A DNA stretch of 64,000 nucleotides from Tomocerus qinae (taxonomy: Eukaryota > Arthropoda > Collembola > Entomobryomorpha > Tomoceridae), in NCBI GenBank assembly GCA_020055645.1, contig CM034546.1:110019375-110083374 (forward strand). Direction: 5' to 3'. A program made the translations under genes and the position numbers. The notes under the pieces were generated by a model that saw nothing but the letters and a program-made list of their open reading frames with translations, made no database searches and was not told where the DNA came from. Numbering within the stretch: the first letter of the stretch is position 1; each line of letters begins with the position of its first letter. Positions 6,386 to 47,445 of this stretch are shown one piece after another.

Positions 6386-9300
6386 ATGAACGGTTCCGAG
6401 TTAGAGTTGGAACAGTGGTCATGTTCTGCTTCCCCAAATAAACAGAACATTAATAAAACTAGCATAAGTAAAGTTTTGATTGGTAAGCTAAATAAGCCTT
6501 TTATTTCCAACATCCAAATCTTCCTTATCTCGTCAAGTAGATTGTTAAGCAAGAGCAAAATAAAAACTAAATATATATTTCATATTTCTATTTCCTAACC
6601 TTGCCTATTAGGTGACACCATTGCCATGAAATGTGAAAAAGAAAGTGAAGGGCTTTTGCTATTTAAACGTGTTGAAGTCAAAAAAGAAAATTCCAGGAAC
6701 GGAAAAAGCGGCTCACCCGATACAGGATATGAATCAGATAACGTTTGTCTAAGAAATGAACTAGTTGAGTCCAACAGTCATTTTGTCCGTCCAGAATTTA
6801 CTGGTACGTACTTTTGCAAAACATTATTTAATGCATATTTTTCAGTATTAGACTCATTTATGTAATTACTTAGTTAACGACTTACTCAATTCCTTTATAA
6901 ATAAAATTATTGAAATGTTTCTCGTTTGACATTATCATAGATTTTGATAGACCCTCGATATTAGGCAGTCTAATGGTGGATGAAGTAAAGCTGTCGCCGA
7001 AAGTTATAACAATAAAGGGGGATAAAAGTGTTGAAGATGAAGGGGAAGAGAATATGGTATTAGATCTGACTACCACAACAAAGAATACTCAACACGAAAA
7101 TCCGATTAGTGTTACTCCACTTGATTATACATTGTCTCCTTCTGATGAAATTAACGCAATTATGAATAGTATGTGATGTTATATATATTTTTTTATTTAT
7201 AAACAAAATAAGCATCTTAAACCTAACGACACTCATGGTGCAAGCTATTATGTTGTGTAACATATAAAGGAAAAATATGGTAACACAGACTTTAATTGAA
7301 TTTTGCCCTTTCAGATGAAGTAGAATCTTTAATTGGAGTTAGTGTACTAGAAAGTGTAATAGAAGCACGTCCTCCAATTGATACAATACTTGCGTGCTCA
7401 GATGGAAAGCTGGGAACCCATCGAATTGTGCTAACCGCTGCATCGGTGTTTTTTTATGACCTTTTTATCAGTCAGGTACTAAATTTTTGACCCATCATGT
7501 ATGGTTTATGCTTAGTATGGATGTGGTAATAAAAAACATAATAAACATCTTTTATAGAGACTTGAAGAAATCGTTGTGGTAATACTTCCTGATATCAGTA
7601 AGAAAACCATGACAAGCCTGCTGCATCTTGCGTATACTGGCCAAATGGTATATACAGAGGATGTTCAGGACGATATTTTTAGTGCAATGGAATGTCTATT
7701 CTTTGGGGATCTTGAAAAGCTAACATTATTCCCTTGTACTGTTAATAAAAGACAACCGCCTCCACCTGCAGCCGATGAAATTGGTAAAGTTTGTGTTGAC
7801 TAGCTCTGCTTTTTAGCTGAAATTATTCTTACGATATCTTCTGTGGATAAAATTCCTGAATTTCTTGTATTTTTGATTTTAGTAATAGTGGCTTCACCGG
7901 AAAAAGATTTGAAGGATAATATGAGAAATTATGACGACAAAATTTCAGATAGAGAATCTTCAACAGAAATGACGGCATGTACATCCAATGCTTCTACTGT
8001 AAAAGCCAAAAATAAAAATAAAAGTGTCATTTTGACATGTCCCCATTGTCCACGTACATTTACAAAAAAAGGGTCTCTGCAGATACACACAACAAAATTT
8101 CACCCTGAAGAATATCGGGCTACAGTTGGAGAAATGCAAATGTTGTCTTTCTGCGACATTTGCGATCGTCAGTATAAAACTGTTAGCAGAGCTATGTTTT
8201 GCTACAATCAACATGGGTTAACAAGATGTCTAAATTGCCTTGGGGTATTTCCTACAACTGAAATAAAAGACCACTATGCAACAATTCATGCCAATATCGA
8301 AGGTGACGATTTAGTTGTTAAATGCCGTTGGTGTTCACGTGCAGTGTCTGTTAAGAACAACTTAACGAATATATCGTCTCATTCAAGCGTTCATTGGCCT
8401 GGTGCTAGTTCAGGAAAACGTCAACAGGAACCAAATAAAGTTGCAAAAGATAGAAAGCGAACAAAGAATACTGCATCAGACACTTGTTCAAGAAAGGTAA
8501 CATCCCTTTCATGTTCATCCATGCAAGCGTTTGAAAGCGAGGCAACAACATCAAGCTTAAAAACTTCTAATGAAGCTACGGAATCCAAAAAACGTCACAG
8601 AAGTGGGAGCAGTGAAGACGATTTTAACTTATCGAAAACTATAAAACGAAATAACAAACAATACGCCAAAAGAACTGGAAAGCCTGTAGGTAGGGGCGGT
8701 GGATTAACTATGGAAAAAGCTACTGTGAAAGCAATAACCAATATGCAACCCCCAGCTAACACAATGTTTGTTGTCAATCATGAAAATCCAACAAAAACAA
8801 AGCCCATGGACATTACTGGTTTCCCTAAAATTGTAATTAAACTTGATTCTATAGAAAAGATAAACAAACTGATGAAAAAGTACAGAAATAGAGCCAAGAG
8901 TAAACGTAGCAAAGGTTTGGATGGAAACAGCAAAAGAAAAGGCAATGTTGAGCATCACGCGACGCCTGATAAGATTGCAGATAATGATTCGATCCAAAAA
9001 ATAAACGACACCCACTATCGAAAAGAAGAGTTGGTAAAAGAGACTGGTATTTTTTATGCGAAAGAAATAAAAGGAAAATCGTACACCTACCTCACTAAGG
9101 CAATGGACAGTGGCAAAGAGGACGCTAACAGTTCTGAAAACATTAAAGTCTTGAATTCAGTTTTAGAAAAGACAGAAGAAAGTTCAACTAAAACAGGACA
9201 TAATTTACCTAAGTTGACCCCATATCCGTATCCCATGTCATATTTTCCTGCGCGCTTTAACCAACCTCCCATAGATGATAGAGCAAGTAAATGTCTTCCA

Positions 9301-11994: not shown

Positions 11995-13652
11995 ATGGTT
12001 AAAGAAACGGGATTTTACGATATCCTGGAAGTAAAGCCTACTTGTGGACCCGAAGAGTTAAAGAAGGCTTATCGAAAACTTGCTCTTAAGTATCACCCTG
12101 ATAAGAATCCAAATGAAGGAGAAAAGGTATAACTGATAACTGTTTTATACAACGCAGTGGCAATAGCAACTCAATTTTGATATAAGAATGTTATAGAACA
12201 AGTGTGAAATAATTAGACATAATATTTCATAAACATATATTAGTATTTAATATTATTAAATTAATATCAACTCTCATTTGTGTTTTATAGTTTAAGTTAA
12301 TTTCACAAGCGTACGAAGTTCTCAGTGACCCTGACAAAAGACGAGTTTACGATGACGGTGGTGAAGAAGCTATTAAGGGACAAGGAAGTGGAGGTCCTGG
12401 AGGCTTCAGTTCTCCCATGGATATCTTTGAGATGTTCTTTGGCGGTGGTGGTGGGTTTTCTAGAGGGCAAAGTCGTCGTGGCGGTGAAAGAAGAGCTAAA
12501 AATGTGGTTCATCAGTTGAGTCTAACATTGGAAGATTTGTATAATGGTACTACTAGAAAATTAGCCGTACACAAGAATGTCATATGCGAGAAATGCTCTG
12601 GTAATTGAAATATATCCGTTACATCCCCCAAGTTAACATTTATGATATGTTGCAAATTCAGTTTCTACGTTGTTTATTATTGTGGCATACCAGTTTTTAA
12701 TCAAGTCTTTTTAACTATTCTGCAGGCAGTGGCAGCAAAAGTGGCAAGCAACCTGATAAATGTAATACATGTAAGGGTAATGGAATGATATTTCGAGTGC
12801 AGCAACTAGGACCGGGCATGATTCAGCATATGCAGACTGTATGCACTGATTGTAATGGTGTCGGGGAGCGTCTTAACCCTTCAGATCGTTGCAAAAATTG
12901 TCAGGGCAAAAAAATTATAAAGGACCGTAAACTTGTTCAAATTCATGTCGAAAGAGGAATGCAAGACGGAGAAAAAATTGTCCTCCACGGTGAGGGTGAT
13001 CAGGAACCTGGAGTTCAACCTGGTGACATAATTATAGTTGTTGATGAGAAGCCACATCCTATCTACAAGTAAGATCCGTCAAATCAGTTGTATTAGTTTT
13101 TGCGGTTCAAATCAATGACCATTGATTTTTACACTTACTATGTAAATCTTAGGCGTTCTACTCATGATTTGGTCATGCAAATGGATCTTGAGCTCGTCGA
13201 GGCTTTATGTGGATTTCAAAAGACAATTGAGACATTGGACCAACGACAACTCTTGATAACAGCGATACCCGGAGAAGTAATGAAGCCAGGAGAGGTTAAG
13301 TGTATTATGAATGAAGGCATGCCGATTCAAGGCAATCCACATGACAAAGGAAAGCTTATAATCCAGTTCAATGTCAAATTTCCCAAAAATCTGGCCCCTG
13401 ACTTGATACCTCAATTGGAGCATTGTTTGCCACCTAGGTAAGCTTTTAATAAAACAATTTGTTGGTTTTATTTATTTTTGAAAGAAGAAAGTTAAAACTA
13501 TTTTGTCTTTTAGAACTGAATGTATAATTCCTGATGATGCTGAAGAAGTTTCTCTTCGTGAATTTGATCCAAAGACTCACAACCGACGAGGAAATTACTA
13601 CGATGAAGATGATGAACCCCGATCTTCAGGAGTTCAATGTCAATCCCACTAA
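11995..13652 (+). CDS. DNAJA1: Type I Hsp40 co-chaperone, DnaJ homologue subfamily A member 1-like (5 exons, 402 aa)
   Basis: Coding exons: 11995-12126, 12291-12600, 12726-13068, 13153-13437 and 13514-13652 (1,209 nt). The J domain occupies residues 1-70 with the catalytic HPD at 34-36 (KYHPDKNP), which stimulates Hsp70 ATPase. A Gly/Phe-rich linker follows ([22 protein letters not shown]). The zinc-binding region begins at C143 with four CxxC repeats (CEKC, CNTC, CTDC, CKNC). Next come the substrate-binding carboxy-terminal domains ([34 protein letters not shown]-like NEGMPIQGN). It ends in GVQCQSH, a CaaX-type box with Cys399, matching farnesylated DNAJA1 tails. It is nearly colinear with vertebrate DNAJA1 (397 aa) and Drosophila Droj2. 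It acts as a cytosolic or membrane-tethered partner of Hsc70/Hsp70. The start is the ATG beginning MVKET, in good context (CACCATGG). The exon begins at an acceptor ending 11951. Confidence 0.97.
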
Positions 13653-18396: not shown

Positions 18397-18882
18397 GTTT
18401 ACATACACAAAAATTCAGAAGTGCCTGGGAATTCCAAACCTATTTTACTTCTACTAGCCTTGGTTATAAGTTATATAAGCTACATACAATTAATTACAAC
18501 CTTTAACCACATACATAGTAAACTTCACTTAAAAGTAGAATTTAGTAGAATTTGTCATTTGAGACAACAAAAAAAACAAAAAGTAAATCCTACCGTAGTA
18601 TATGAACCACAAACTAATTTCTTTCTAAGTTCATTCGTGCTAAAAGCTAGAAAACTATTTTCCGTAAATGAAAATGAGGAATTTAAAATATTTCCCTGTG
18701 CTATTTACAGATGGATACAAAAAGGAGAGCCGAAAGCCAATCTGACTACAAAATGAAGTCTGCAAAACTTTTGAATCCTTTTCGAATAGAGCGTTAGTTG
18801 CCAAATTGGATTTCTTGCCACTCTCATATTTCTTCGGAAAATATATCTTGATCAAGACAGTGAATGGCCAGTAATATCCGAA

Positions 18883-21800
18883 ATGAATACCAACCCAAAC
18901 CGAAATTCGCGACATCACCATCAGCAGCTCCCGAATCAAGGGGGTGTAGCTGGTGGTGGTAACAACAACAATGTACTGGTTTACATCAACCAGCAGCAAC
19001 AACAAGGTGGTGTTGACCTCGGTGGGTTAAGCAATATTAGTCAGAATCCGAATCCAATGCCACCATCTGGCTGGGTCAAATCTCACTCATCGTCACATCA
19101 TCTTCAACAGGGAAATGGTATTTCTTCAAGTAACTCGAATTGCTCTCCTGCGTCTTTGTCAGCTGGTTCGATGTCTACTTCTTATGGTGCTTCTAATTCT
19201 TTCAATTCGCAACATCAATTCTATTCTGGCCAGTCCAGACCTCAACAAACGGATATTCGTTACTCTGCTGGCAACAATGGTGGAACTAATCATATGCGTC
19301 CAAATCCAAATTACAACAATCTCAGCGCAAACAATGGAATGTTTTACCCCGTGGAAAATCAATCGACTGCTGATTCTTGCCAATATTATCAACAAGATAA
19401 TAATTTTCAGTTTGATCACACTCAGATGAAAACAAGTTCTTGTGATATGAGTAATGGAAACGAAGGAGTCTCTTCTAACAATTCGAATTTCTACGGTTTC
19501 TACCCTCAAAATTCTCATTCTTATCATCAGCAGCAAGACTATCAAAACCAAATGGGGAGTGGTACAACGAGTGGAAATAATAGTATGGGGGATGACACGG
19601 ATTACAGTCGTGTTCTTCACCAACAGCAACACTACCACAATAGTCATCACCATCAGCAGCAACATTCGAATGTACAGAACCAGCAAGGCCATAATAATTC
19701 TTTACCTGTTTCTGTCCAAGACTATTTTGGGTTACCGTCCTCATCAACTGAAAATTCCTCTGGACGACACAATCCAAATTACGGCCATCAGCTACACCAC
19801 CAGCATCATCATTCTACTCCCTTCCGAAGAAATTCAATCGAGTCATATAGTTCCGAACCCGGTGATTTACCTTACAACGCTAAATACGCGTGTAATTTTC
19901 CTTCCACGCAGTTCAACTCTCAAACAAACTCTGGAATGACGAAGAGAGACTCAATGTCTAATATGTCCATGTCAGTACCTAGTAATTGTAATTCTCAGTG
20001 GTCGCGTGATACTAATATCGTTAATGGTCCAGTGGAACAGTGTCATACTGGTAACAACAGTCATGGATACTTTTTCAATAACAGTCACAGTCAGCAAAAC
20101 CAAAGTCATCGACATTTCTCCAATGTCAATGTCAACCAAAATAGTTTATCATCTAATTTTCACCAGCAGCAAATGCAAAGCTTTAAGAGTTGTTCGTTTG
20201 AGCAGCAAGAACTGAGGTTGGATGACATGAAACCAGACGGTCAAGTGTCAACAGTAGGAACTTCCACCAAAGCAGCAGCAGTAAAACATAGAAGTCTGTC
20301 TTTATCTTTACCCTCATCTTCTTACTCAAGATCTGATATCGGATTTCATTCTCAACTTCACGATCAAGAGGGCAACCTTGTCCATTCTCATTTAAATAAC
20401 TCTAATAATTTAAGCATTAACCCTTTCGATGAAATTGAGACTAATTCAAGCATCGTACCTGTACCTGTAAATCAAAATTCGGATCATACGAGTCAGTGCA
20501 AATTAAGTAATTGTGTTAATAGGGTTGACAATATCAATGGGGATAGAACAACTATTCAGTGTGACAATTTCTCCCCAAATAATGATGCTGAAGCTAGGAT
20601 TCAGCAAGAAATCGTTGAAAGTCAAAATCTCGTAGAAACAACAACGCTGTCTTCGTGTCCAAGTAGTCAGTCCAACTTCAGTAATTCTGAAGTTTCTAAT
20701 TCGGATTCTATTGTGTCAGCGTGTAGCAATTTCCCAGAGGTTGTGACAAGTGTACTGGATGCTACTAATTGCAAAATGGATGGATTGAGTCGGGACGATG
20801 GCAGCAAAACTGACGTGAGTCTTATTAGCACAACAACAAATGACATTGGCCATCACGTAGATAACGAGTCGGAAACAGATCCTAATAATAGCAGTAGTAG
20901 TTGTGGTTTGGGTCTCTTCGGTCACAGCAATAGTGTAAGCAACTTGACCCTTATTGTTGGCGACAGTGATGATAGTGAAAGTTGTATGAGCGGCATCAGC
21001 AGTTTCAGTGGGAGCAACAACACTAAAATCTCTCCGCAGAAAATCTCAAAGAGATCCTTCAGTGAAGCCGACAAAGATCTTGTAATTAACACAACTGCAG
21101 TATCTTTTGGTGGACGAGGAACGGTCATTATTCCTAAGGGATGGAAAAGGGAAAGTTCCTCCAGTCAGCAGATGGAGAATATAATATTTTATATCAGGTA
21201 CCTTTTTCCGACCCTTTGTACTTACACATTGCTGTTGCAAATTGAAAACCAATTGCCCATTGTCTTATCTTATCAACTTTATAGTATTATTACCCTTTTA
21301 TGCTCATGCCGTGTTCTACTCCTACGGACACTGCTACACTTGCTTAAAAATTAGTATATAATTTAAAACACAACTGACACTAGTAATGCCATATACAAGA
21401 AACATTCTCTAAATAATTACCACATAAAAACCCGATGTTAAAACTCATATATGATTATGGTCATTAGGTATAAAAGAGTTATTTATTAGACAAGTCTAGG
21501 CTATGTCTACCAATAAAGTAGACACTACTAAAGGGCAATACTTATTTATGATATGATAATAAAAGAACAAAGTGAAATCATTACAAGTGTAACTAACATT
21601 AAGAGCGGGGCTCAGATGTGTTGTCAGCCCTCCCTCCCTCATGGATTATTCACTGTTTATTACAGTGGGAAAACCAAGAAATTAAAGGAGACATGAACCT
21701 ATACACTATTTACTTTTGAATCTACTTACTAGTGTGTAAATGTAAATTTAAGGGTTTCAATCTAGCAACTCCGTGAATATTTCTCGTTCTGGACTGCGAC

Positions 21801-27800: not shown

Positions 27801-30800
27801 ACACAAAATGATAGAGACATACGATAATGAAGCGTGCGGAAAATGAAGGGTTGTTCCCTAATGGGCTAAAGTCATTTCGACATTCTTAATGATGATGTTC
27901 TGCTGTTTTGATGTCGGGTTACTTATGTTTGGTTTCTGAACTCACTTTTTACACTTACGCACTGAAATCGACATTGCATGTTCATTATTACACAATATTT
28001 AGCTACTACTATCATATATTACATGATAAGCATTTTATGATGCGAAACCAAAACCCACCCCTTTTAGTCCTCTTTTGCTTATTATTCGATATTAATGATG
28101 GATATGAATGTAATTTGATTGATTTTTTTCTATTTCAGTCCAAGTGGTACGAAATTAAGGACATGGGACGAGCTGAAGAATTACATTTGTTCAGACGGCA
28201 CTTGCAAATGTGGACTGAGCTGCCCTTTACGTTTAGAGCATGCTTTCAGTTTCGACCCTAAGGTAATCATCTCATCATTTTATTGAATATTAAAATTATG
28301 TGTCCTCAGCAGTGGAGGAACAACATTATTTTCAATGGGCTCTAGAGCTATATTCACTTCTCGTTGGAAAATTACAATAATACCAGCAATGAAATATATT
28401 TTAGGCAGTTTCTTCGTGTTATGATATGAAGTGAAAGGCCGTGTCTTGTTGCCTTTTGTGAACATTTGTGTTTAGATAGAAAATATTGCTGTTTCAGGTT
28501 GAATAATAAATGGGAGGGCGGTATATGATGGCATGTTATGTGTGTAATATGTAATGTGGTCGAGTTGACTTGTCGTCTCGACTGTGTCCAAAGTTTTTTA
28601 TGGTGTGACGCCAAGTTTCGTGTGTCGTTGCTGAAGTAGGGTTTATAAGCACCTTAAAGAAAGATATCTGGTATCAGCATCCATAAATATACCTACGATC
28701 TCTACAAGGGATTCTAGTGTAAATTTCCTACAAACCTAACAAGACATAACTACATGAAAACTTTAATATTTTCTAGGTAACAAATTTATGTCAGGAGGAA
28801 GAGGAGAGTTTACTGAATCTCAATGAGACTGGGACGGAGACGCGACTCTTGTGCAACCATAAGAGGAAAATACCCAAAAGTGAAGATTCTCCGCTCATCT
28901 CATCAACCAGGGATGATTTAGGTGAGATTCGCCTCGTTCGCGCTCTATTTTTTCACATTTTATTTAGCAACCGGTCCTAACTTGGCTGGACTCTCCTACA
29001 TCATCACATACACATCAGAGAGACATGCTAACTCGTTTAGCTCGTTTCAGAGCTAGGCTTTTAGCGTTTGTACACCCTTTTCCTGGATTTGAATGGGTAG
29101 GACAGAAAATGAATAGGGTTGTTGATGTGACAGCCTTGCGGATGCACATCACTTTTATTGTTCGTTGATTTAAGTTGAGTTCTGTGAAGAATGGAAGTTG
29201 TTTTATTTTGTGTAATGTGCTGTCTACTGTTTACTTACTACTTACATGATTGTGAGTCCGACTCTCATTTAAAACTTGATAGCTGCTTCTAATGTGAGCA
29301 AACATATAATGAAAGTAACTAACTGGTGGCAGAAATAGACTGTCATAGAAGGATTGCTGCTAATTAGTCTTTTCAGTAATCACCCATTTCCTTTTTTTGC
29401 CACTCAGTCACTCTCTACTAGTATTTAGCTCAGTTTTCTTTACTACTCACTTGCTTTGCCTTATGTTGTAATATTATTAGTACTACGGTGCATTAGCAAC
29501 ATAAGCTTTGGCTTTTCATTCCTTCAAACTACAATGCAGACATTTGGTAAGCGCTCCTTCCTCCCTTTTCCTAATGCTGTTTTCCCTATTAAGACCATTA
29601 TATTATAATGCACCTATTTATGTATATGCACACTCTATACTCTCATCTCTCGCAGAGTATTTTTGTTGCACACCGTGAACTAACGCATTTAGTTAGGATG
29701 TACCTATATAATTTGAACAGAAACGAAAAGATTATAATAGCAGCTAAAGTAACGTAGCGTAGTAATTCATATTATGTGTACTTTGTTCATGCACCTATGT
29801 TGTAACTTGTAACATTACGATTATAAACTGGATATAGAGTTATCTAAGTGAGGAAAGGTACACTCACATACACTACAAAGCTTTTCTTTATATTGTTATA
29901 AAAATCCTATAGGTATATACGAAGATGTTACAAAGACATTATCATATGATATAAGTAGAAGCAGGAGTCGTGAACGTGAATGCTTACTACTACGTTCAAC
30001 TACGTTGCGTTGTTGTTTAGTGAGTCGTGCGAGTCGTTTTTTTCTCCAGCCTTTTCCTCTGGCTTCCTTTGGTTAGGTTAGATACATAAAGTTTGACTTA
30101 AACCCTTCTGTAGTAATTGCGTTAACTTTACTATCCACGTCTTTCTTATGTGCATAATAGGCATCTATTAAGTATATCAATTCTTTGCCAGGTTTTGTAT
30201 CTTACCTTGTCTGACTACGTCTTTCCTAATTTTTATATGTACGTATATAAATAATCAAGTAGTAAAGCAAACCTTCTACTATAGTGTACATTTCTTTATA
30301 TCTATTGTGTTGGTTGTGTATCTTTGAGGTAATACTTTCAGACATGGATACAAATATAGCAGTTGATTTTATGTAATCTTTTTTTGGAAGTTGAAGCCAA
30401 GAGTTAGAGAAAAAGGTAGGGGCTATTAGTTTGACACGCCTGCCCTTCTTATTCTCATGCTCACATCAACTGAAACTCATGATGATGATAATAAAGACAG
30501 AGCATTAGCATTTTCTTTATTCTTTCTACTGTTTTGTTGAAGTTGAGTCAACTTTGTAAATTTTGGTGAATGGTCTACTTGACTCTGTTAGTTTGCTGTG
30601 GTCTTCACCCTTGTATGATGTATCTAATATCTTTTTAACTGAAACGATATCATTTTGAAATCGGCCACCACTAGGTAAGACTGCTGGTTGTTGGAGTACA
30701 ATTCGTACGTGAGAATATAATATATGTAATACGTAGGATAATTTGGTGAAAAAGAGCATCCTGCCTGGTGGAGTCTTTAAAATTCAGTCTGTTGTTGTGT

Positions 30801-33800: not shown

Positions 33801-36800
33801 GATGCATCCTTTCATGTCGACAGACAGACAGACCTGCTTTTCTTCGCTTTGCTCATGTCTTGTCTACTAGACTGCCAATGCTATGCAGTGCAATGATGAT
33901 ATTTTCGGGTTTAGGGATGTGTGAATTTCATGAAGCGTAACACCCTTCTCTCCTTAGGAGTTTTTTTTATTTACCCGTAACTTTTCTCCTCGACTTATCT
34001 ATTTTATTGCACTGCACTGCTTTGCATTACTAGTTACCAGTTGGAATAAAACTTATTTACCTACCTACTTTACCCTACTATACTTACTACTCTACATGTA
34101 TTGCATCGCTGCGCAGACTTGATCTGGATCTACAACAAAACTTGAAGAAGTAGGGAATGAATTGTATTTTTGTTCTCCTGCTATTACACAGTAGATAGAG
34201 TAGGAACCAGTCTGGCTTGTCCTACATACACTCTACCTGACATACTGAAGGTAGTAGTTGAGTCTGGTTTACTTACTTTCAGTTATGTCCATTTACATAC
34301 ATATACTAAGAAGTTTACGGTTTTAACTCCGCGTTGCGTACCTTACCTCCAGCTATCTCTAAATAAAATTTCATATCAACTCCTCTTAAACATTTACTTG
34401 TTTTAAACAGATGGATGCATTATTATGTTGTTGCTTTTCCTTTTCACTTCTAACTTGTCTATGATATGTGTACTTTGGGTAGTCATTTGCTTTGCTAACT
34501 CGCGTATATTTTGTGCCTACCTCCTGGAACAGACTCAATCCCTTATTACACATTATGATTACAAGTTATATCAGTAGCAAGCTGTGTTGAAGGTGCAAGT
34601 GGTAGGTAGCCCTTAGTCCATTTCCCACATTCCCACCACTCCAAGTTTCATTTTACTCCGGAAGCCTTATCATTAAAGTGTACCTTGTCTTATAACTCGC
34701 ATTACTGTGATAAATGTGCTTATCATTTGGTAACCTCCGTAAGGTGTATCATTATAAGGGCTCCCTTCCCCATCTCATGTTGTTTCTCTTGCTAGCATTA
34801 TTAGCTTTACTGATGGCTGAATTGTTTGCCTATTATGTTAAGGTTCGAGGGTAGGATACAGCTCTAGGATAAGAATACCGGCCTTTTTACCTTATTAAAA
34901 AGGAGAAAATATTACAAGCTATGCATGACGAGTATTATGCAATGCACTATTTATTTATGAATGTTCAAACTTGTACGTGATACAGATACTGAAAATATTT
35001 ATATGTTTGGGTATCTAATGCTCCTTTTATTCCTGAGGTTCGTTTCATGTGTGAGAAAGAATAATTGGAAAAATGCAACTGTAAATGTTGGCGAAGTTTA
35101 TTAGTTGAGCCAGGTCTTTGTAAGGAAATAAGGGCTGGAAAAAGAAGACAAAATAGGGTATCCACAAGACCATTTCCTACCCTTATAAGGAGCTTTTGTA
35201 TTTACTATTAGTATGATTGGACATAACCTAACGACTGTATTATTTGTATGGTATACTAATATAGTTCGTGTTTATTATAATGTATTAGTGCATCCTTACT
35301 TGCGTTTCTTGTTCATTTTTTGTCATTGTTACTTGGAGAGGATATCCGAATCGGGAGTGTAAATGTAAATAGAGGAATTGAATTCATTCGAGTCACACTG
35401 AGAGATCTTTTACACGAACATTTATTATTTAGGAGAATAGAATAGCATGCTATGTAATGTAACCAGACAGACAACAGGAGATTCAGATGTGTGACTATAA
35501 TAGCTGCATATTATATGGATTAATATATTTTGTACATGGAGAATATGAAAACCTCTGTGGATAATAAATGACTACCAAACTTAAGCTGTAAAGGGTTTGG
35601 CTCCCCATGTTAGGACAAAGGGAGAGCAAACCTGCTAGGTTCGGGATCCAAGCTACAGGATATGACGAGATGAAGAGATGAGGTAAGAGATGGATATGCC
35701 GATTCGGTGAATAAAGGTTAGAGTGTACAAGTCAGAGTAGGTTTAGTGGACTGTACGACTTTATTGAGTATTAGACTGAATGGTAGTTGGGAAAGAGAGT
35801 ATCTAGGAAAGAGAAGTGAATCGTGTCGCGAGTCTGAGGGAACTGGAGTTATGTTCTGGTGTCAGGACTTATAAAGGTTCGGGTCATTTGGATAGAAGGG
35901 AATGGAATTGGTTAGGTAAATGTGGTGTATTTGAGGTGCGGAATGGCTGGTAAGGGGTGGACGAACGTGTGTGTAGGACACACCTTACAACCTCCCGTCG
36001 CAATCTTTTTGACAAGAATTAAAAATTTGTACATCATTACATAATCATTTAACATACCTTCATAACAAATGTTTTCATTCTGACAAAAATCAATGGTTAT
36101 TTTTAGATTATTTATACTAACATTCTAATTGCACTTCTTATCCCAATAAATAATTAAAATAATAATATCGAAAACTGAATCTGTTATTTTCATATACTGT
36201 AGATATTATATAATAATTGAAATTATTTCATCCTTAAATGTTTATGTACAGTCATACTCATATACTTATAATTTTAAGCTTATTCATACTTATAAATCCA
36301 ATTAAATCATTACAGGAATAGTACTATTATAACATTCACTAATTAAATCTTAACTATAGAATTGAACTAATATGCTATTAAACAAAATTAAAGTCATATT
36401 TGGGTAATTGTCTCGTTACTGTGGTTGATAAATCTCAAGTTTCGGGGTTAGTTGAGAATTATCCTTGGAACTGCTGTGAAACTAAACTTTGCCCTTAGTT
36501 TTGTGTGAATTTTAAATTTATTGTTTCTACTCACCAATTTGGATTGCACTGCTTTTGCTCCTGTTTAACTCTTTTCGTTTCGCGAATAATTTTGCACATC
36601 AGAATGAGTAGTTTGTGAGTAAGGAGTGGTGAGATAGAACGTAGAGAAGTCCATGTGACGCATAAAGAGTTGCAGACCTTCCTAATGGCAATGTTGTAGA
36701 TGAGACCGTAGTTAGTGTTTCCAGTTTTAGAGAGTCGTAGTTGAGTTTAAAGAGTAGTTGGATGTCGAGTAGGAATGGTTACATCGTGTGGAGGAACCAA

Positions 36801-39800
36801 AAATATCCTGCATCCTCTGTTGTCCAGTATTGTTGAACTATAGATCCAGTAAACAGAAGAGTGCCACTGGAATCTACGTGAAGTCGTGGTCTGATCTCCG
36901 GAATCATGTTGTCCCAATGGATGCTTAGTCGTCGGAGGCTACTGTTTTTAAGTCATCCTTGGTTGGGTTTTGATAATTTAGTTGTTCCTGAAGTCGCTCT
37001 GTACGTCATGGAAAATAGCACTAAATTAGAATTCAATTATTTTTATCCACATCTTACGCTTTATTAGAATTGCCAATTTATGTCTTCTTCCATGATTTGT
37101 TTTTCTTTTCATCGATGTCTCGACGAAATATTTTTCATGGATCGGTGGTGCTACGTTGTACTGTGTGTGGTAGTCATGTATCCGTTGTTACTCTGTCGTG
37201 ATTTTCTCATCCTGCCGCCTTTTTTTCTTCATTCTGTCGTAGTTTCCAAAAAGTGGCCATCTGCAGGTAGAGATACAAAAAGTGGCCATCTGCAGGTTGA
37301 GGTACAAAATGTTGCCATCTGCATGTGAAGATAAAGAATTGTGGCCATCTGCATGTGAAGATACAAATTGTGGCCACCTGCAGGCTGGTATACGAAAAGT
37401 GGCCACCTGCAGTAAAGCATAGGGAAATGGTCATCTGCATGCCTTAGGCATGAAATGCTGCCCCCGTCATCGTGGTTGTTTAGTATCCCTGACATTGCAC
37501 GTCAAGGTCCTATATTTTCTGGAATGCTGTTGAATTTGAGATAATGCGTATTAAGTTAATTAACATTATTTTTCATAAAATCGTAATTTTTAGAATTTCA
37601 CATTTCTTATTCATAACTAGCTCTATTTCTTGTTGTATAGGTAATGTTCAGCTGCGTATCTCTTTATAATACTGCTTATTTAACCTCCTATATGAGCTAT
37701 ATTTCCATCATTGCATTTGTTGCCCCATATTGCAAATTCAAAATACTAAACTTTGTCGCTATGAACTATTTGTACTCATGCTGTGTTTTGTGTCCTGAGG
37801 ATAGATCTTTACCTTGCCTACCAGTTGTACTAATCAAAGAGTGGCCTTCCCGATGAAAATTAAAACTGTAGCTTATCTATGTTGTTTCCCTCAATTTTCA
37901 AAAACATACCTGCATGTACAAACATTTTCATCATTGGTAACCTTTTCTGTATCAGCTCCAGACATCGCAATGTATGGATACTTCAGCTTAGCAATACTTT
38001 CTCGTAAAGCACAGCTTATATTCTTTTCCGGTCATCGTTGCATTTGAACGAACTGTTTAAGCTTCCCACAGTAATTTCTCTATCACTGCCGGCTACTGTA
38101 AACATTGTATTACTTCTTCCTATACCCATAGCTCGTCCTTACTGACAAACTTTAACTTGGGTCTCCTTGGCTGTATCTAGTAATAAATTTTGATGAATTT
38201 CAAATCATTCAAATTCTTATAAGTGAACCATACCTTTCTCGATAGGTTGCTTCTATTATTACCGTATACACCTTCCTGAGCTTTCATGCGTACCTTTGTA
38301 CACTTCCAAGAACTCTACTTATGCATCTATAGATTCCTGTTATAGCTCTCTCTCAATTTCAATGTCCTTATTGCTAATACATTAATTTTTATGTCTGCAT
38401 GACTTTCGAGCATCCGCAAACTTTTGTTCTACATAACAATAATTTTACGACTTTCTTAAATATTTAATGTATCAACATCTAGAGACGTTTGCATTAGCTT
38501 AACATTAAATTTCTCAATTTCTTATTTTTAATGTCTGCCAAGCTTTCATGCACCTGCAGACTTACTATTCGAATTAACATCAATTTTATTTAACTGTCTG
38601 CTGGGCTTTCAGTGCACCCGCAAACTTACATTTCTAAATGAACTTTACTATAGACAATAATTTTTCAAGTTGCATCTATTCTCCTGTCTGCCGGACTTTC
38701 ACACATCCGCAAACTTCTGCACTTAGAATAATTCTATTTTTCTATTCTCTTTCTGTGTACTAATCTATGTATATCAATTATATCAATTATCAATTAGTAC
38801 ATGTAAACGATCTTAATTTCAAAGAACAAGCCAATATAAAGAATTGTAGAAGAGATTACTGGACGTTTCAAAAAAATTTAAGAATTTTAAAAGCATTTTA
38901 AAACAAGTTAACATTTACATTTAGTCAAGCATGGATACATTTCATAATCTGTGATATTTGCTGTATGATACTACTATTCTCAGCTATCTGTCCGTTAGTC
39001 AATATACTTATTTAAATATTTATCAGTAAACTATTTCTGATCTCCTATATTCTATTGTATACGAGGACAAGTATGTAAAGTAATATAGCTACAAAATTTG
39101 TACTAAATACTAGTTCCTGGTAAAATTCTCATCCTATTTGCTTAAATCTCTTGTAAAAATTCTATGCGTCCGACTGTCGTCTATGTAAATTATCTGGTAT
39201 CTCTCTGTCTACGCTTCCTGAGTCCCTCAACTCCACGCATTCAAATCTTAATTCCTATTCTCTAGTCTCTCCCGTCGCTTTTAATTTTACTATACTTTTC
39301 AATTTCTAGACATTGCTTTCAGAAATTCTTAATTGCTGTTTGAGAAACTAAAATTTAAATCAATATTACTCTTTTATACTTCAATAATAATTATTGCTAG
39401 ACTATCTTTAGCTGCAATTTATGAAATACTGTTTCAAATATAATTATCGCTAATATTAATTAGTAATTAATTAGTTACCTCGAACACTCAAATGATTTTG
39501 TTTCAGAAGCATGGGGTTGCTTAACTCAAACTAATCTCTGAGATCTACGTTCACCACTTTTGCGTAGGATACAGTAGATATTTTGACGTTCATTTTGTCT
39601 TACTTTAATTTTGTCTTATGTTTAGTTACTCTTAAATTATGATTTCAGGATCACGCTTTCAACACGTTCTGCACTGAAATTTTTAATTACTCTGATATTT
39701 CAGGATCACGCTTTCAACACGTTCTGCACTGAAATTTTTAATTACTCATATTTCAGGATCACGCTTTCAACACGTTCTGCACTGAAATATTTGATACCTT

Positions 39801-42800
39801 TTTAACAAATCCTTGTCTCGTAAATTTCGCAATACGTAATGAGGATTGTTGTTTACCGTTGAGTACTGTAATATAGATATAAGAAGGTTTTGTTAAATCA
39901 ATTCTTAAAATATTATTGTAAATTATAGATTATCAATAAATTGAACGATACTAAAATATTACGCTTTTTATCTGCTTGTCTTCTTGGAATCATCTCGTCC
40001 TAGTTTGCACACCTGTTCTTTCACAAAACGGTGAAACAATACTGGGTTGGAGACAGTGTCAGTTCTGGAGTAACGGTAGCATTGTAACTGGGTTTTCAGG
40101 TTTCAGTCAATCCCGAAGTCAGAATTGTAAAGTCTTCCTTTCCTCTTCTGGTCAGGCTAGGTCAATCCCGGAGTTCTTCAGAATTGTAAAGGTTCTCTCG
40201 TCAGGCTTGATCAATCACGGAGTTCTTCCGAATTGTACAGGTTTTGTACTGGTACAAAATTTTTTTTTCTTTTTCACTCGGTTTCGGTAGCATTTGTAAA
40301 ATTTTGTACTCGTACGAAACTATGAATTTTTCACTTCGAGGTTTGATTAAATCCTGGGTTTTGGCAGCATTTGTAAAGGGTTTGGCTCCCCATGTTAGGA
40401 CAAAGGGAGAGCAAACCTGCTAGGTTCGGGATCCAAGCTACAGGATATGACGAGATGAAGAGATGAGGTAAGAGATGGATATGCCGATTCGGTGAATAAA
40501 GGTTAGAGTGTACAAGTCAGAGTAGGTTTAGTGGACTGTACGACTTTATTGAGTATTAGACTGAATGGTAGTTGGGAAAGAGAGTATCTAGGAAAGAGAA
40601 GTGAATCGTGTCGCGAGTCTGAGGGAACTGGAGTTATGTTCTGGTGTCAGGACTTATAAAGGTTCGGGTCATTTGGATAGAAGGGAATGGAATTGGTTAG
40701 GTAAATGTGGTGTATTTGAGGTGCGGAATGGCTGGTAAGGGGTGGACGAACGTGTGTGTAGGACACACCTTACAAAGCTACCCTTACCTGGATATGCTCT
40801 TAACATTTGTTTAGGTTGAATTATCGTTGCCTGAGTAGGTAAAGGAAATAGAGATGACTGTTTTTTATGGGTCTTTACAGTAATTCAGATATATTAGGAG
40901 GAACTCTATGTGTATGACTCGTGATGGTCCACATCCATAATACAATACAACGGTGGGAAATTGATCACTCGTGATGAAAGAATGATTTACACCTGGAACT
41001 TTTTACTCTCGGAGGGATGCATTGTGTATCTTGCTGGGATTGTGACCCTAATCTGAAAATTATTTTTTAAAGTGAGACCGCTTTTAAGTTCCAACGAGTA
41101 ATATTTCAAAGTGCATCTCATTTGAGTCAAAACAATGAACCGACCTCACCCAAAGGCAACTATAATTAACGTGTAATCCCTTTTGTTTGAATCTCATCCA
41201 AGAATTTTGACAATTGTTACTTTGTTTAACCTTCCTGATATTATACGCAGTTTCCTTCTAGTATACTAGCTTGTTAGTGCTTTGTAATTTTGTAGTGTGT
41301 CAGCTGATACGAAATAATGATTTTACATTTCAGAACTGCTTTCTTGTCTGCACATAATCTTGTCATATTCTTGGCCCGTGTGAGTTTGTTTTTCTTTTGG
41401 AAGATGATGAAGATTTCCTCTTTTGATATTTTGTTTTTCTCTCGCTCTGTTGGAGACTTTTATCTTTTTTGCACTGCTTTTCTTTTCGTTTTCATTTAGA
41501 AGTTTGATTATTTTGTGAAAGGCAAACCATGAATGTCCTTTAAGCTTGTATATGTTACATTTTGTATACTTTGTCGCTGAAAGAACAAGCTTTGGTAGTC
41601 CCTTGTATTTGTTTGTTCCTTTCTCGGCTCGGTAATCTCTATTTGTATTATACGTAGTGTCTTAAGTTGCAAAAGATCTTTTGTGCTATTTCTATAGCGC
41701 TTTTTGATCTTAGTCAAGAGGTTTGGTTCATGTAATGTAAACCCAGGTGCTTTTCTACGATTCTTATTTTACGGGTTTTTATTATCCTACTTTTGCTTCT
41801 TTATACCTATATAAATACGACTACCACACAACAGAGTACGTCACGGGACAACAAAACCCTCTTGAATTGTTTCATTTCCTTTTTTCTTTTCCGTTTGTCT
41901 TGCACTATTTGTCTTCTGCTTTTGCAACATAGAATCAATAGAGAATGATGAAATGGAATAAAATAAATCCAGCCATGCAACTTTAGTGTTTGAAATATTA
42001 TTCAGATACCCTACAGTATTTCAAGTATCAAAATCCAAGTACTTCTAAATCTAAAAATCCTGGTATATTTCAAGAATCATAGAAATGTTTACTACTGAAA
42101 CAGACAAGGTACCTAACGTATGTAAGTGGAAAATAATGAGCAGATGTTCTTTTATATTCTGAGAATTTGTTGAATCTTTGCTTAGTGGTGGTTCTCATTT
42201 TGACGAAGTAAAATGGAAAAAGTAGGTAGTAAATCTGTGAGAAATTGAGTGAGCTGTTATTTTACTTATGAATCATTTCTGCAATGCCTGACGTCAGTTT
42301 CTGGTTAAAGTACCTAACCCGAGAGAGCTGGAGTCGAGAAAAAAAGGATCTATTTAATTTAATGTTTTGTTGATGTGATACTTTGGTTAGTTTGCTTTTG
42401 TAGCAATTGGAAACAAAACTGAAACTAGTTGGGATGGGTTTGTCATGCCCTTTTATATACATGTGCTCCGATGCGGATGTTATCTGCATTCAAGTAGGAT
42501 AATAGCAATGCATTTTGGAGAGGCTGGTCGGGAAGATATTTATTCATATAATATCATTTATGGAAGTTGAGTCCTTTGTAGAAAAATGAAAAGATTCCTC
42601 GACTCATGGTGTTGCTTTATTGCTACAATATCGTATATTACACTCCAATGGGACGAAACAGATATTCTATTTACACTACAGTAAACTAAGTATATAATTA
42701 TATACTCTCTGTAAAAAGAGCTTACACTTCATGACTACTGAATATAATATAACGTAGAGATGTTTGTGTAAACCCAAAGTAAACTGTTGAGCGAGTGTAA

Positions 42801-45800
42801 TACTTAAAAGATGGGCATTGTAATGAAACCGGAACTATGGAACGAAATCCCAGTTTGTTTGCTGGCAGTTGGAGTAAACATCATTTTGCTACATGTGTAG
42901 TAATAAATATATTCTAAGAACGTACGCAGTAGGTAGATATGATTCTGTATCATATTCCATGCTCCTGCGCTTCGCGAACCTGATAAGTATTCTAGTTTAT
43001 TACATTAACTGACGTAAGTTTTGTAGGTATGTAAAGTAATTTATGTAGGTAAATGTACTTATTAGGAGCTAAAGAGTTAGCTTGTTTACTATGTGATGCA
43101 CATGCAATGTAAGCATGTACTATTAGACAATTATTGATACCGAGAAGAGTTAAAAAGGTATGAAATGCTCTCGGGAAGGAAAGTTGTATGTTTTAGCTAT
43201 TTTCCAGGGTTTATAAGGATATAGGATGCTCACGATTAGCACAAAAGCTACCTCATCATAACGTAACATGAGTGGCCATTTGTATTGTGTTTTGTGTGCA
43301 TTGTGTGTGCATGGATGGACTCGGAGTCTCTCTGTATGTGGTAAACTGGTGACTAGTCACTCTACTCATTCCATTTCAATGAGACCAGAATGCATTAGTT
43401 TTCGTTATAGCTTTATGGGGTTATTATATCTATTAAATATATGTACATACATGGGTACTAATAAAAAGGTACTGGATACACATTTAATGATTGCGATTCT
43501 TATTGAATGAACTGCTGCTGGAACTGAATGGGTTAGCAGTGAGTGACTTCATTATCATGAAATAGTGCTAGAGAATTTTTTCATTAGGTTCTTCTATATT
43601 CAACATTTTCATGGTGTTCTAAAGTAATTTGGCACACCTGGTTTAGTTTGTTACTCTATATTTACCTGGTACAATGAAAACACATTATCCTACTATGCTA
43701 TTACATTACAAGAAGGGGCTTATTCACTCATCAAATCATGTCCTAGTCCTCTACTTTTACATTTCATCGTGTTTTCCCCTTGATTGGTTTCGCTTCGTTG
43801 TAAATTGTCATGTAATGTGCAAAGCTGTAATAATTCTAGATAATAATATAATTTGAGCATTGCATCTAGTCCGTTTTTGTATCAGTTCTCATTTCCTACG
43901 TGTCATTTCTACAGAAATTTGGTCGACCGTCCGTTGTCTCTCCCTGTGTGTCTTTTCTCTATCTATATTTATATTGTATTATGAATTGTCCCTCTCATGT
44001 CCCTTTTTCACTAATGCACTACTTAGTAGATATGGAGTATACTACTAGTAGAGTGGATTAGAATTGGTTAGAACATAATGGAATAAAAGGGTTAGAGTGG
44101 TGAATCGAGTGAATTGCAAAGGAAATACGAGGGGTTTAAAGAGAAATGAATGAAAATGACTTGTTTGGCTGATTCTGAGTTGATGACGATAATGATGATG
44201 ATTATGATGGAGAATGGAAGGGTTTGAATTGGTAATAGCAGAGTTGGACTGTCAGCTAGTATAGTTATTATGTCTTTTATCCACGTTTTAGTGTGTGTGT
44301 TGATGTGCAGTGTGAAATGTAATGATGTGCTTGTGTGCATTTTACAACTACCAGAGTTTTCTGACACCATGAGTCATATTGTCCCATAATGTGATGTGTT
44401 TTAGACTGTGAATGATGTGTATATATGATTATTGTTTGAGATATGATGACACTGATTGGAATGGTGTAGACTGTTATGACTGTAAATGAATTGTAATATT
44501 ATTTGATTGATTATTCTAGGAGACTGTGGGGAGAAAAAGAGCAAGAAGCGACGGACAAGTGGGAGCGGAGGTCTGAATGAGAATCTCACTTCGATTTCAT
44601 TGCCCAAGAGCTCTCCGTCAATAACGAGTGGCCATCATGTTCCAGTTCCTTTTTCACAGCAGTCACCCGACACCACAACTCAAACGCCCCAGGTATAATT
44701 GGACACCATAATATGCCTAACAGTTACATCTTGTCTCCCGCAAGGATGATGAGGATTATTAAAATGGATCAATATTTGACTTTTGAATTATGATTTTTAT
44801 AGACGGACATGTCACCTGCTTCTTCCGTATCTTCAGAGCCTTCCTCAGCTACGATATTCAGCTCGGCGGGAGGGAACGGTGGAAGTCGATCAACAAACTC
44901 AACGCCGACGCCCACATCAAGTGCCAGTTCCAGCAGGAATGTTAGCACCCCGCCGGCGAAGGGACAAGCCCAGTGTGGGTTTGCCTGGCCACCGCCTCCT
45001 ACGTCACAGGCGCAAACGGCTCCATTCTGGCCGAATACAACAATTAATAATAATCCGAATAATACAAATACCACTGGAAAGAAAAATACCAGCGCTCCTG
45101 CAAAGAAGCCTGGATACCAACATCATTTGATTCCTAAAGTTGCCAAGAGGTCGGCATCCCCTTGTCCGAATATTGACGTGAGACAAATTCCGTTGGAGCA
45201 AAACAGACCACCTCCTAGACAAACTCCGATTTCGATAAGAAATGCTCCAGCAGCCGGTGCTAGTCATCCAAACCAAAATCCAAACCTTAGCTTTTTCCCC
45301 ATCACTTCGTCACATGGAGATGAATTGAATTTAAATACTATGAACTTGAATATGAATACTGGCTATTCCATTTCTCCGATTCCGAATACAACTAACAATG
45401 CGAATACTCTGCAATTTGCACAGACTGTTGTCAATGCCAATGTTAATACGATCAATGGGAATTCTCTGCCTATACAAATCCAAAGAGTTATCACAGGGAC
45501 AAACCCCGGTACAACTACAAATGCTTTACTCCCGCAAGCTCTTCCGAGTTCCATCACAATTTCAATGGTTAATCAACAACCTCAGCAGCAGCAACAACAG
45601 CAACAACAACCGACTACAACTACTGTGAATAATGTTGTTGCAGGACAGAATGTAGCTACTTCTTCGGAGACAGTTAGTGAGAAATCGCCTTTACAGTTGG
45701 TGCAGGATGTGGTGAATAGATTCCACTCGAGTCCGAAAACAGAGGAAGGAAACAGTGGTGGAAAGGAAGTTGTAAATGGGTCAACGGAATCCACTTCTGT

Positions 45801-47445
45801 GACAAATATCAATCGGAAAGAACAAAGTTCGGCGACAAGTTCCAGCCCTGTTGGAAGTAGCACTCCGAATGAGCCGTCAACAACACCAAATGAAGTCGAA
45901 ACGGTCGAGCTTGAAATTCAGATACCTGCTACCTCTTCTAGCGCTAATGTTACAAGTACCATTAACAATAGCAAGACCAATAAGTCAGATGACGATAGTA
46001 TAAGAATCATTGCGGAGACTATAGGGAATAAAACAAATGGGGCTGTCAGCATTGTGGAAGTCACAAATTCAAGCGAAGCAAAATCCGTGCCGCCGAGTCC
46101 CTCTCTGAGTACAGCTAGTGCAACGATCGTCAGCGGAGTTCCGTTGATTTCCAATACTACATCTATGACGACAACAACGAGCAGCACTGGCACCGTTCCG
46201 ATCATGACGGCGATGTGTGCTCCGATGGCTTCCACTGCAACAAATACAATAATCAACTGTGCAACGACGACAACTACTTCGAATGCTAATACGTTGACAC
46301 TAAATGCTCTGAGTAATTTGAGTGCCATCAGCGGTGGGACAAATCAGCCGCTAATTCTTCAACAGTCTACTGATCAGAATACTGGTCAAAATTCAACTTT
46401 CCTCACAGCTACTTCTGCAGGACCTCAATCTCTTCGCTATCCCATTTTCCAGACAATCCAGCCTTTTTTCCTGAATTCAACGGGTGCACCTGGGGGCTCA
46501 CTAATAATCTCACCACAATCTCAGCCTCACACAACAGAAACTTTAGGACAACAGTCTTTCATTTACGATCATCAGTCCCACACTCAGCATCAAAATACAG
46601 ATGGCATTCAGCCAATGCTCCAACAAACGACGATGGTTCTGGATCCGAATGTCTGTGGAAATACAGGGGGAATTGTTGGCGGTCCTAAGAAAAAGAAGAA
46701 GAGATTGAGTAAAAAGCAACAGCAACAACAAGCCCAGCTCCAGCTTCAACAGCAGCTTCTTTTGCAACAGCTCCATCAACAAGCCCAGCAGCAACAAGCA
46801 GCAGCGACAATCCCTCTGACCATTTTCCCCCAGTCTTTCAACTTAGGCAACTTGGGTCATCAAGGATTCAGCCTTCAACCGATGAACATGAATATGAATA
46901 TGAATTTCTTCCCCACCCCAACAATACTAACGTTACCGAATCTAATTTTAAATCCAGCGGATGGAACTCTTTTCATTCAGCCTTCAACACCTTTGTCTGC
47001 TGCTCAGCAAACTGTTAAATTGGGTCAGTTTCCGCTGGCGGCAGCTCCACAACAATCAGTACAACAACCGAATCTTATCGCTCCGAAAAAAGATATAATT
47101 ACGACAACTGCATCAACGACCACGATTCTATCATCAGATCTACTGAAAACAAGTCCAACTTCAGGTGATATCGGATCAGATGACTCGAGGCAAAACGCAA
47201 CACCGGATTCAAGCACTAATGACCTACAGTTGAGTTTATCTGTAACAAATCCAAGTCAACCAAATTCCATTACTCTCAGCCTCCAACCACACACAACAAC
47301 GATAGGGACCACCAACTCTCAGAAGAAAATTGCTGTCAAAAGTAAAGCTGTGAGCAGTAGTAGTAGTGCTGTTAAAAGGGTTTTCACACAGAAGCAAATT
47401 CTTCCGAAAATCGACTCTACGACTCCATCCGTAGAAAATGGCTGA
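18883..47445 (+). CDS. sba: Methyl-CpG-binding-domain protein of the MBD5/6 (six-banded) family, 5 coding exons, about 1,799 aa
   Basis: Exons: 18883-21197, 28139-28262, 28777-28921, 44520-44692 and 44803-47445 (5,400 nt, phases consistent, ending TGA). Residues 1-740 are low complexity, rich in Asn, Ser, Gln and His. The MBD lies at about 745-815 and is assembled from three exons: PKGWKRE, then IFYISPSGTKLRTWDELKNY, then SDGTCKCGLSCPL and FSFDPK. The CKCGL..CPL signature and FxFDP are distinctive of MBD5/6 rather than MBD1-4 or MeCP2. A downstream LLCNHKRK motif is also shared. Basic nuclear-localisation clusters sit near 867 (KKSKKRR) and 1548 (KKKKKRLSKK). PolyQ tracts lie at about 1180-1190 and 1552-1580. 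Vertebrate MBD5/6 bind the PR-DUB H2A deubiquitinase through this MBD and may not read methyl-CpG. No PWWP domain is recognised. Start: first ATG in a frame open from a stop at 18787. Confidence 0.88.
21198..28138 (+). other. First long intron of the MBD5/6 gene (6.9 kb)
   Basis: It begins with GTACCT after ATATCAG and ends with TTTTTTCTATTTCAG. It splits the MBD between FYI and SPSGT. The exon 1 frame happens to stay open for about 150 bases into the intron (stop near 21352), which would truncate the MBD if retained. Inside there are no organised repeats beyond a short TAAGCTAAGC-type direct repeat at about 27070-27110. Open frames near 21773-22407 show no protein signature. Confidence 0.75.
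35583..35586. repeat. Target-site duplication, left copy (AAGC)
   Basis: The four bases AAGC immediately precede the left LTR and recur immediately after the right LTR at 40775-40778. A 4-bp duplication is typical of Ty3/Gypsy-class and some BEL-class integrases. Confidence 0.8.
35587..35989 (-). repeat. LTR (left copy; 3' LTR of the minus-strand element)
   Basis: It is 403 bp and identical by eye to 40372-40774. On the minus strand it starts TGTAAGGTGTG and ends CCCTTTACA. TATAA lies near 35868-35876 and the polyadenylation signal AATAAA (TTTATT on +) at 35760-35765, the order expected for U3-R-U5. Confidence 0.95.
35990..36000 (-). other. Candidate polypurine tract of the LTR element
   Basis: On the minus strand this reads CGACGGGAGGT and directly abuts the LTR. 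A purine-rich tract is required at this place for plus-strand priming. It is short, and the T and C interruptions make it only moderately convincing. Confidence 0.45.
37253..37441. repeat. Tandem array, about 6.5 copies of a 29-30 bp unit, inside the LTR element
   Basis: The unit begins GTGGCCATCTGCAGGT and is followed by a variable GA/TA-rich segment ending in ACAAAA. Copies start near 37253, 37282, 37311, 37341, 37370, 37399 and a partial one at about 37428. Copies vary between CAGG and CATG after CTG. Several overlapping frames stay open on the minus strand through the repeat, which explains the cluster of 72-88 codon frames here; they are not considered genes. Confidence 0.85.
38391..38720. 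repeat. Dispersed repeat, four copies of a 30-bp motif inside the LTR element
   Basis: A motif of the form GTCTGC-n4-5-CTTTC-n5-CA(T/C)CCGCAAACTT occurs near 38393, 38532, 38595 and 38685. It is separated by AT-rich filler of roughly 35-110 bp. The ends (GTCTGC and GCAGAC/GCAAAC) are complementary, so each copy could form a small hairpin. Confidence 0.75.
39647..39798. repeat. Tandem triplication of a 53-55 bp unit inside the LTR element
   Basis: Units start at 39647, 39702 and 39755 with AGGATCACGCTTTCAACACG, followed by TTCTGCACTGAAAT. The first two are identical except for a 2-bp difference near their ends. The third diverges after GAAAT. The near-identity indicates recent expansion. Confidence 0.9.
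40105..40250. repeat. Degenerate tandem repeat, three copies of about 50 bp, near the primer-site end of the LTR element
   Basis: A unit of the form TCAATC(C/A)CGGAGTTCTTC followed by GAATTGTAAAGG recurs near 40107, 40162 and 40209. It lies in what would be the transcript leader just after the primer-binding site, the usual position of packaging signals in LTR elements. A role in packaging is speculation. Confidence 0.65.
40350..40369 (-). other. Candidate tRNA-Phe primer-binding site of the LTR element
   Basis: On the minus strand, two bases after the end of the right LTR, TGCTGCCAAAACCCAGGATT resembles the complement of the tRNA-Phe 3' end (TGGTGCCGAAACCCGGGATC as I recall it), differing at 4 of 20. 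The mismatch at the third base (TGC for TGG) is unusual. Confidence 0.5.
40372..40774 (-). repeat. LTR (right copy; 5' LTR of the minus-strand element)
   Basis: Same length as, and by eye identical to, the copy at 35587-35989. As the 5' LTR on the minus strand it would drive transcription leftward through the element and antisense to the MBD gene. It is followed on the + strand by the AAGC duplication at 40775-40778. Confidence 0.95.

Follow-up and report, generated by a model that had tools for sequence, protein, structure and literature searches.

The 64-kb window of the Tomocerus qinae genome analyzed here (the whole stretch C1:110019375-110083374, from a host assembly of 334 Mb in 115 contigs; coordinates given without a contig or locus name are those of the window) carries an element that is very probably a recent insertion of a non-autonomous long terminal repeat (LTR) retrotransposon of the large retrotransposon derivative (LARD) type, with its sense on the minus strand. 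The two LTRs, at 35587-35989 and 40372-40774, are identical at 403 of 403 positions, begin with TGTAA, and end with TTACA, and the element is flanked by the 4-bp target-site duplication (TSD) AAGC at 35583-35586 on the left and 40775-40778 on the right. With both LTRs included it measures 5188 bp, a size outside the class of terminal-repeat retrotransposons in miniature, which are small, well under 2 kb. The LTRs have a GC content of 45% and the 4382-bp interior (35990-40371) one of 33.7%, and a self-BLAST of the window found no repeat pair longer than 104 bp besides the LTRs. The promoter-like and polyadenylation-like LTR signals TATAA (LTR position 117), TCAGT (211), and AATAAA (225) stand in the correct order on the minus strand only; the element is read on this strand, so that the LTR at 35587-35989 is the 3' LTR and that at 40372-40774 the 5' LTR, with these signals, converted from LTR coordinates, at 40654-40658, 40560-40564, and 40545-40550. 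The distance between TATAA and TCAGT, ~95 nt, is longer than usual. In sense orientation, the 5' LTR is followed by a 2-nt AA spacer and a primer binding site (PBS), TGCTGCCAAAACCCAGGATT, at 40350-40369, and the polypurine tract (PPT) position, GACGGGAGGT with its short run GGGAGG, lies directly 5' of the 3' LTR at 35990-35999. An earlier prediction made from the letters alone (the original prediction) had named the identical 403-bp LTRs, the clean 4-bp duplication, a primer-site-like sequence, the polypurine tract, and the ordered LTR signals, and all of these are present.

The interior contains no trace of gag or pol. We compared its 53 open reading frames (ORFs) of at least 35 amino acids (aa) with Pfam at E ≤ 1 and found no gag, reverse transcriptase (RT), RNase H, protease, or integrase domain; the chance that RT, integrase, or gag lay hidden there, which had been put forward as a way to overturn the original prediction, was thus not borne out. 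The same comparison returned eight families with one member each, the best at E = 0.0039 (TEX29), and we take these matches as chance. PHROGs gave no match at E ≤ 0.01, Rfam gave nothing at the gathering score over the window, and an LTR 24-mer had no exact match in viral_contigs. The longest stop-to-stop ORF of the interior, 111 aa, was equaled in 25% of 300 first-order Markov simulations. There are 25 ORFs of at least 50 aa, whereas the simulations averaged 16.7 and 1.3% of them attained the observed count; the source of this small excess may be two tandem arrays (a 29-bp unit repeated 5.7 times at 37247-37412 and a 55-bp unit repeated 2.8 times at 39642-39792) together with an ORF relic on the plus strand, considered below. 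With no pol among these ORFs, the element lacks the protease-RT-RNase H-integrase set of Ty3/gypsy elements, and the one hint of gypsy affinity comes from the gag of a cousin element.

An LTR search of the host assembly, which scored 40 matches of 64 candidates and therefore yields copy counts that are lower bounds, showed that the element belongs to a multicopy family, as had been predicted. We fetched 26 further loci, and with the window included, 14 copies have both LTRs within the fetched stretch. These paired copies have outer lengths of 4.9 to 5.3 kb, L016 excepted at 7.1 kb, and 13 of them have a perfect 4-bp TSD (L009 matches at three of four bases). The PPT position is alike in 14 of 14 and the PBS in 13 of 14. 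No substitution separates the LTRs in 10 of the 14 pairs; three of these (L018, L029, and L030) differ in length, leaving seven fully identical. The remaining pairs differ by one (L015 and L017), two (L012), or four substitutions (L016), and the pooled LTR pairs hold 8 substitutions at 5599 sites. The family therefore comprises at least 14 young full-length copies and, given the 10 substitution-free pairs and the 13 perfect TSDs, has moved recently, presumably in trans. Chance is ruled out as a source of this anatomy by its recurrence in at least 14 copies at sites with differing TSDs.

The predicted recency of the window insertion agrees with these figures, but zero substitutions in 403 sites bound the divergence at no more than 0.74% (95%), or ~1.3 million generations if each site changes at 2.8e-9 per generation, so that "recent" is a loose term. 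A single LTR stands between perfect TSDs at 5 of the 13 other fetched loci (L022, L023, L031, L032, and L034), which we therefore regard as solo LTRs; L020 has a second, partial LTR, and the remaining fetched loci are long forms or fragments. The LTRs of L024 and L025 (C1:19795000-19804500 and 19843700-19853200) lie 49 kb apart with flanks CAAT and CAAC, and the likeness of these flanks makes the surrounding DNA look duplicated. The window element thus has what characterizes a LARD, namely TG..CA LTRs with a TSD, a retained PBS and PPT, a kilobase-scale interior with no gag or pol, and multiple, recently mobile copies; the noncoding state may not extend to the whole family, as three long-form copies hold ORFs with ratios of nonsynonymous to synonymous substitution (Ka/Ks) below 1.

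Mean divergence between the 14 copies is 1.95% in the LTR and 9.64% in the interior, and interior divergence exceeds LTR divergence in 91 of 91 pairs (78 of 78 without L016). Both edges of the interior diverge little, by 3.2% over the 100 nt that adjoin the 5' LTR and by 2.5% in the final complete 100-nt block ahead of the PPT, and values of up to 33% occur between them. The trees of five segments disagree: in approximately unbiased (AU) tests each segment rejected the trees of the other four (all 20 comparisons at p-AU < 0.01), and the three long interior segments lost 153 to 1438 log-likelihood units. The conflict among the interior-segment trees indicates recombination between copies. Mosaic interiors would most simply arise from template switching between co-packaged RNAs, and gene conversion is a possible alternative source.

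The first 420 nt past the 5' LTR, which we call the leader, house degenerate repeats of the LTR-end/PBS junction. The window array (40045-40300, minus strand) contains four such repeats at interior sense positions 72-102, 132-168, 181-210, and 240-273, with scores of 40.5, 34.5, 35, and 32.5, above both the maximum of 27.5 reached in 100 mononucleotide shuffles and the best score elsewhere in the interior (26); a fifth, at 285-327, scores 24 and does not exceed these controls. Two to four repeats above 27.5 are present in each of four other family copies tested, one in L035, and two in L037, and a like duplicate, judged by eye, adjoins the PBS of the cousin L039. Multiple priming or slippage during strand transfer could produce such an array. 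The leader also contains an imperfect hairpin with 23-nt arms (40241-40320), whose mir-239-like match in Rfam was rejected at 24.4 bits, below the gathering score of 49.

The PBS junction occurs at 16 places in the host, these being the 14 paired copies plus L035 and L037, which form a sister subfamily that the LTR search did not list. The sister LTRs, of 395 to 397 bp, are ~80% identical to the window LTR, the PBS and PPT junctions are the same, and one LTR pair is identical and the other 99.2% identical; no gag or pol of their own was found among ORFs of at least 100 aa inside these elements. L035 (2305-9868, with identical 397-bp LTRs) contains a nested RT ORF pair at 5703-7539, for one member of which RVT_1 matches at E = 0.0074, under the cut-off, and by eye the pair looks like a Penelope-like insertion. 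The PPT/LTR junction pattern, at up to two mismatches, occurs at 26 host places, five of them with a sister-type LTR start, and one two-mismatch match (L046) proved unrelated. L026 has the LTR and a 521-bp part of the leader in common with the family (85%), with no gag or pol in the two ORFs of at least 80 aa within the 4.4 kb read past its LTR.

A looser PBS search gave 15 places, six of which were read, and identified the cousin L039 (C4:9023600-9030600), with a 471-bp LTR and a tRNA-Phe-type PBS. The cousin family has six LTR pairs, 7.4 to 7.9 kb from start to start, and gag in all six: fully open in three, with one stop in two, and in two pieces in one. The gag of L039 matches Retrotrans_gag at E = 7.5e-4, under the Pfam cut-off, and no pol was found among its six ORFs of at least 90 aa in the 7.0 of 8.4 kb that were read. 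On C4, an additional LTR (9031035-9031491) adjoins the 3' LTR of L039. We rejected as close partners several BEL/Pao-like elements with the same PBS (L040-L043; two families), whose LTR ends differ (both judged by eye).

We hypothesize that the LTR promoter would give rise to an RNA of the element, which would be packaged in a particle with the RT and integrase of another LTR element, most likely a Ty3/gypsy-like one. Copying would be primed at the tRNA-Phe-type PBS and would use the GGGAGG PPT, and the borrowed integrase would insert the copy and make the 4-bp target duplication. Co-packaging of different copies, with template switching, could yield the mosaic interiors, and constraint on the cis-acting ends, or their homogenization, may explain why the middle drifts but similarity persists in the LTRs, at the start of the leader, and at the PPT end.

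Several observations weigh against this account. The 91 pairs have common ancestry and are hence not independent. In the tree comparisons we used odd/even-column controls for four segments, with half the columns each and no control for the PPT segment; control losses were 1 to 27 units, yet 4 of the 8 tests still ended in rejection, two of them for the LTR halves and one each for a half of the leader and a half of segment 1260-2600. These rejections and the uncontrolled PPT segment make the LTR and PPT segment tests (losses of 26 to 80) weak, and we therefore rely only on the size of the losses in the long interior segments. The PBS form common to 13 of the 14 copies differs at three positions from the PBS of L017, TGGTGCCGAAACCCGGGATTGAA, which we take to be the complement of the 3' end of animal tRNA-Phe. 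Two pattern searches recovered no host tRNA-Phe gene from the assembly, in which some stretches may be missing: the 3'-half pattern occurs at 10 places, eight of which are element PBS sites, and the 5'-half pattern at three places with three mismatches each. The element may be intact for transposition in cis, as originally proposed; its PBS departs from the presumed primer at three positions, though these differences are common to 13 of 14 young copies. Finally, the anticipated autonomous partner did not emerge, in that LTR, PBS-junction, and PPT-junction searches, all of limited reach, recovered no pol-bearing element with matching LTR ends.

The long-form members offer a different view of the short copies, which might be worn derivatives, with the ORFs lost and the ends kept, of a longer, gene-carrying retroelement (L016 at 7.1 kb, L033, and L021); we consider the chances of this close to even, if slightly short of it. 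Where the window interior has 0.9 kb, L016 and L033 have ~2.8 kb and L021 has ~2.0 kb, and these stretches are mutually homologous. They contain three ORFs. Two of these, A (290 aa from stop to stop in L016) and B, run antisense to the element and are incomplete or disrupted in L021; the third, ORF C (100 aa), is in sense. Locations in L016 are 1449-2650 (+) and 3669-3968 (-). Ka/Ks is 0.32 for ORF A and 0.53 for ORF B (one pair each) and 0.21 to 0.31 for ORF C (three pairs), all below 1. Nine antisense control frames, however, gave Ka/Ks of 0.21 to 2.9, five of them below 0.75, and this spread means that constraint on ORFs A to C is supported fairly but not absolutely.

Relics of ORF A persist in six other short copies and in the window, where 45 codons interrupted by a stop (36544-36678, plus strand, antisense to the element) match L016 at 62% over 45 aa. 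The claim that the element has no coding capacity stands for the window copy, which keeps this relic, but may not extend to the family, in whose longer members the ORF is open. Diverged homologues of the long-form ORFs also occur elsewhere, at four places for ORF A (31 to 33% identity) and at one for ORF C (C1:36558775). An ORF A homologue at L045:1701-2273 (-) is a 190-aa open frame and, like those at C1:117428921 and C1:56665073, lies outside the LTR family (32 to 33%). Set against derivation from a gene-carrying form, Pfam and PDB gave no significant match for ORFs A to C, and as none of them resembles a polymerase, even the long form would depend on a helper. Moreover, just three long copies were seen, the ORF C match of L021 has one stop in the genome search, and the difference between the forms may reflect either ORF loss in the short one or ORF gain in the long one. 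No relative of ORF C was confirmed in viral_contigs. A relationship of ORF A to the SLX1 C terminus was without support, its PHD-like matches were nonsignificant (PHD_NSD, E of 4.5; SPP1, E of 1.6), and a literature search returned nothing joining a PHD finger, an LTR retrotransposon, and an antisense ORF.

The uniformity of the LTRs might also reflect purifying selection on the promoter and integrase sites alone, without recombinational homogenization of the LTRs, a reading that we regard as possible but somewhat doubtful. Divergence is lowest in the LTR outside positions 101-200, at the leader start, and at the PPT end, and LTR positions 101-200 are freer, at 3.2 to 3.9%, which speaks for such selection. 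The mosaic interior segments nevertheless indicate that recombination exists, and the ends and the interior disagree about the closest relatives of the window copy: those nearest by LTR (L009-L012 at 1.0 to 1.2% and L029 at 1.3%) are ~10% away in the interior, whereas the nearest by interior (L013, 4.3%) is 1.7% away in the LTR.

A broader proposal, which we rate as rather unlikely, is that the window family, the sister subfamily L035/L037, and the cousin L039 form a recombining community of virus-like parasites. Its members would have their cis signals (the tRNA-Phe-type PBS, the PBS-like leader repeats, and the LTR motif CATTCAGTCTAAT) in common with a helper whose LTRs are otherwise unrecognizable; co-packaging would homogenize the ends and leave the interiors free, some of them with selected passenger genes, and the leader array would be a footprint of mis-priming or slippage. 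Derivation by simple internal deletion from a gypsy element that was autonomous until recently is improbable: the cousin, whose PBS is also of the tRNA-Phe type, does retain its gag ORF, but the 4.4-kb interior has no gag or pol trace, and the sister subfamily at ~80% LTR identity shows none either among its ORFs of at least 100 aa, so that the loss appears to be ancient and to have been inherited. An origin as a pair of separate solo LTRs or by duplication in the assembly, each named beforehand as fatal to the original prediction, can be dismissed as far as the sequence allows, since the TSD matches, 13 other places have a homologous interior enclosed by an LTR pair and TSDs that differ in sequence, and the window LTRs, mutually identical, differ by 4 to 9 substitutions from the 5' LTRs of all 13 other copies, some of which do have identical LTR sequences (minimum between-copy divergence of 0).

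The insertion site lies between a methyl-CpG-binding-domain (MBD) piece at 28119-28250 (+), with a Pfam MBD match at E = 2.8e-4 and 20.9 bits against a cut-off of 21, and a large ORF at 44.8 kb. The DGTCKCGL motif is MBD5/6-like, and large low-complexity ORFs flank it at 18790-21351 and 44803-47442 (+). Possibly these parts form one MBD5/6-like gene, in which case the element would be intronic and in the opposite orientation. Farther upstream in the window, Pfam identifies BTBD17 TRAF-domain and DnaJ-type exons at 2660-3136 and 12701-13069 (+).

A recently inserted, noncoding LARD-type element of this kind provides a clear-cut example of a noncoding LTR family with recent activity, in a long-contig assembly that permits measurement of age, solo LTRs, sub-lineages, and recombination. 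If co-packaging homogenizes the ends, LTR-based dating and family assignment would mislead about the interior ancestry of non-autonomous elements, and with the long forms one may ask what role genes with no recognized retroelement domain play inside such an element. Plant LARDs are likewise noncoding derivatives of LTR elements present in many copies. TR-GAG elements are comparable to the cousin L039, in which LTRs and a gag ORF occur with no visible pol; the window element has no gag.

The LARD pattern named in the original prediction is confirmed. Noncoding LTR families, a pattern described there as less often documented in arthropods, are on record for two insects. In the portions of the report available for Culex quinquefasciatus, 38 noncoding LTR families (cqUNK) with tandem repeats and no master copy are described, along with another element that has an atypical PBS region (PMC3286476). 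The cqUNK families resemble the window element in having LTRs, a PBS, a TSD, tandem repeats between the LTRs, no coding capacity, no master, and an insect host, and differ in their 5-bp TSDs (one given as "nd") and in the Arg, Leu, Ala, Ser, Thr, and Gln primer sites of the available table rows, and the available passages do not set LTR divergence against interior divergence (PMC3286476). The honey bee repeat table, as available, lists 301 LARD entries making up 3.10% of the genome, also noncoding LTR-element derivatives in many copies; these are pipeline calls in a table, whereas anatomy, age, and copies were checked singly for the window family (PMC4028053). The record of noncoding LTR families in insects thus places the window element in a known class.

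Outside the insects, the wheat Angela and Wilma/WHAM/Sabrina systems, in the available parts of their description, have non-autonomous families beside autonomous partners and LTR trees that differ from internal-domain trees, with gene conversion or template switching suggested as the route of LTR transfer; partners are proposed for the wheat systems, whereas none was found for the window family (PMC9744471). The non-autonomous pararetroviruses of grasses have noncoding regulatory sequences homogenized by recombination between partners, a likeness that holds for the available text; they differ in being plant viruses with identified partners, and in the LTR elements described here homogenization is one of two readings (PMC5491270). 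Within this company, the features of the family that are worth specialist attention are the differing histories of its ends and its middle, the repeat array in the leader, and the long form with its ORFs.

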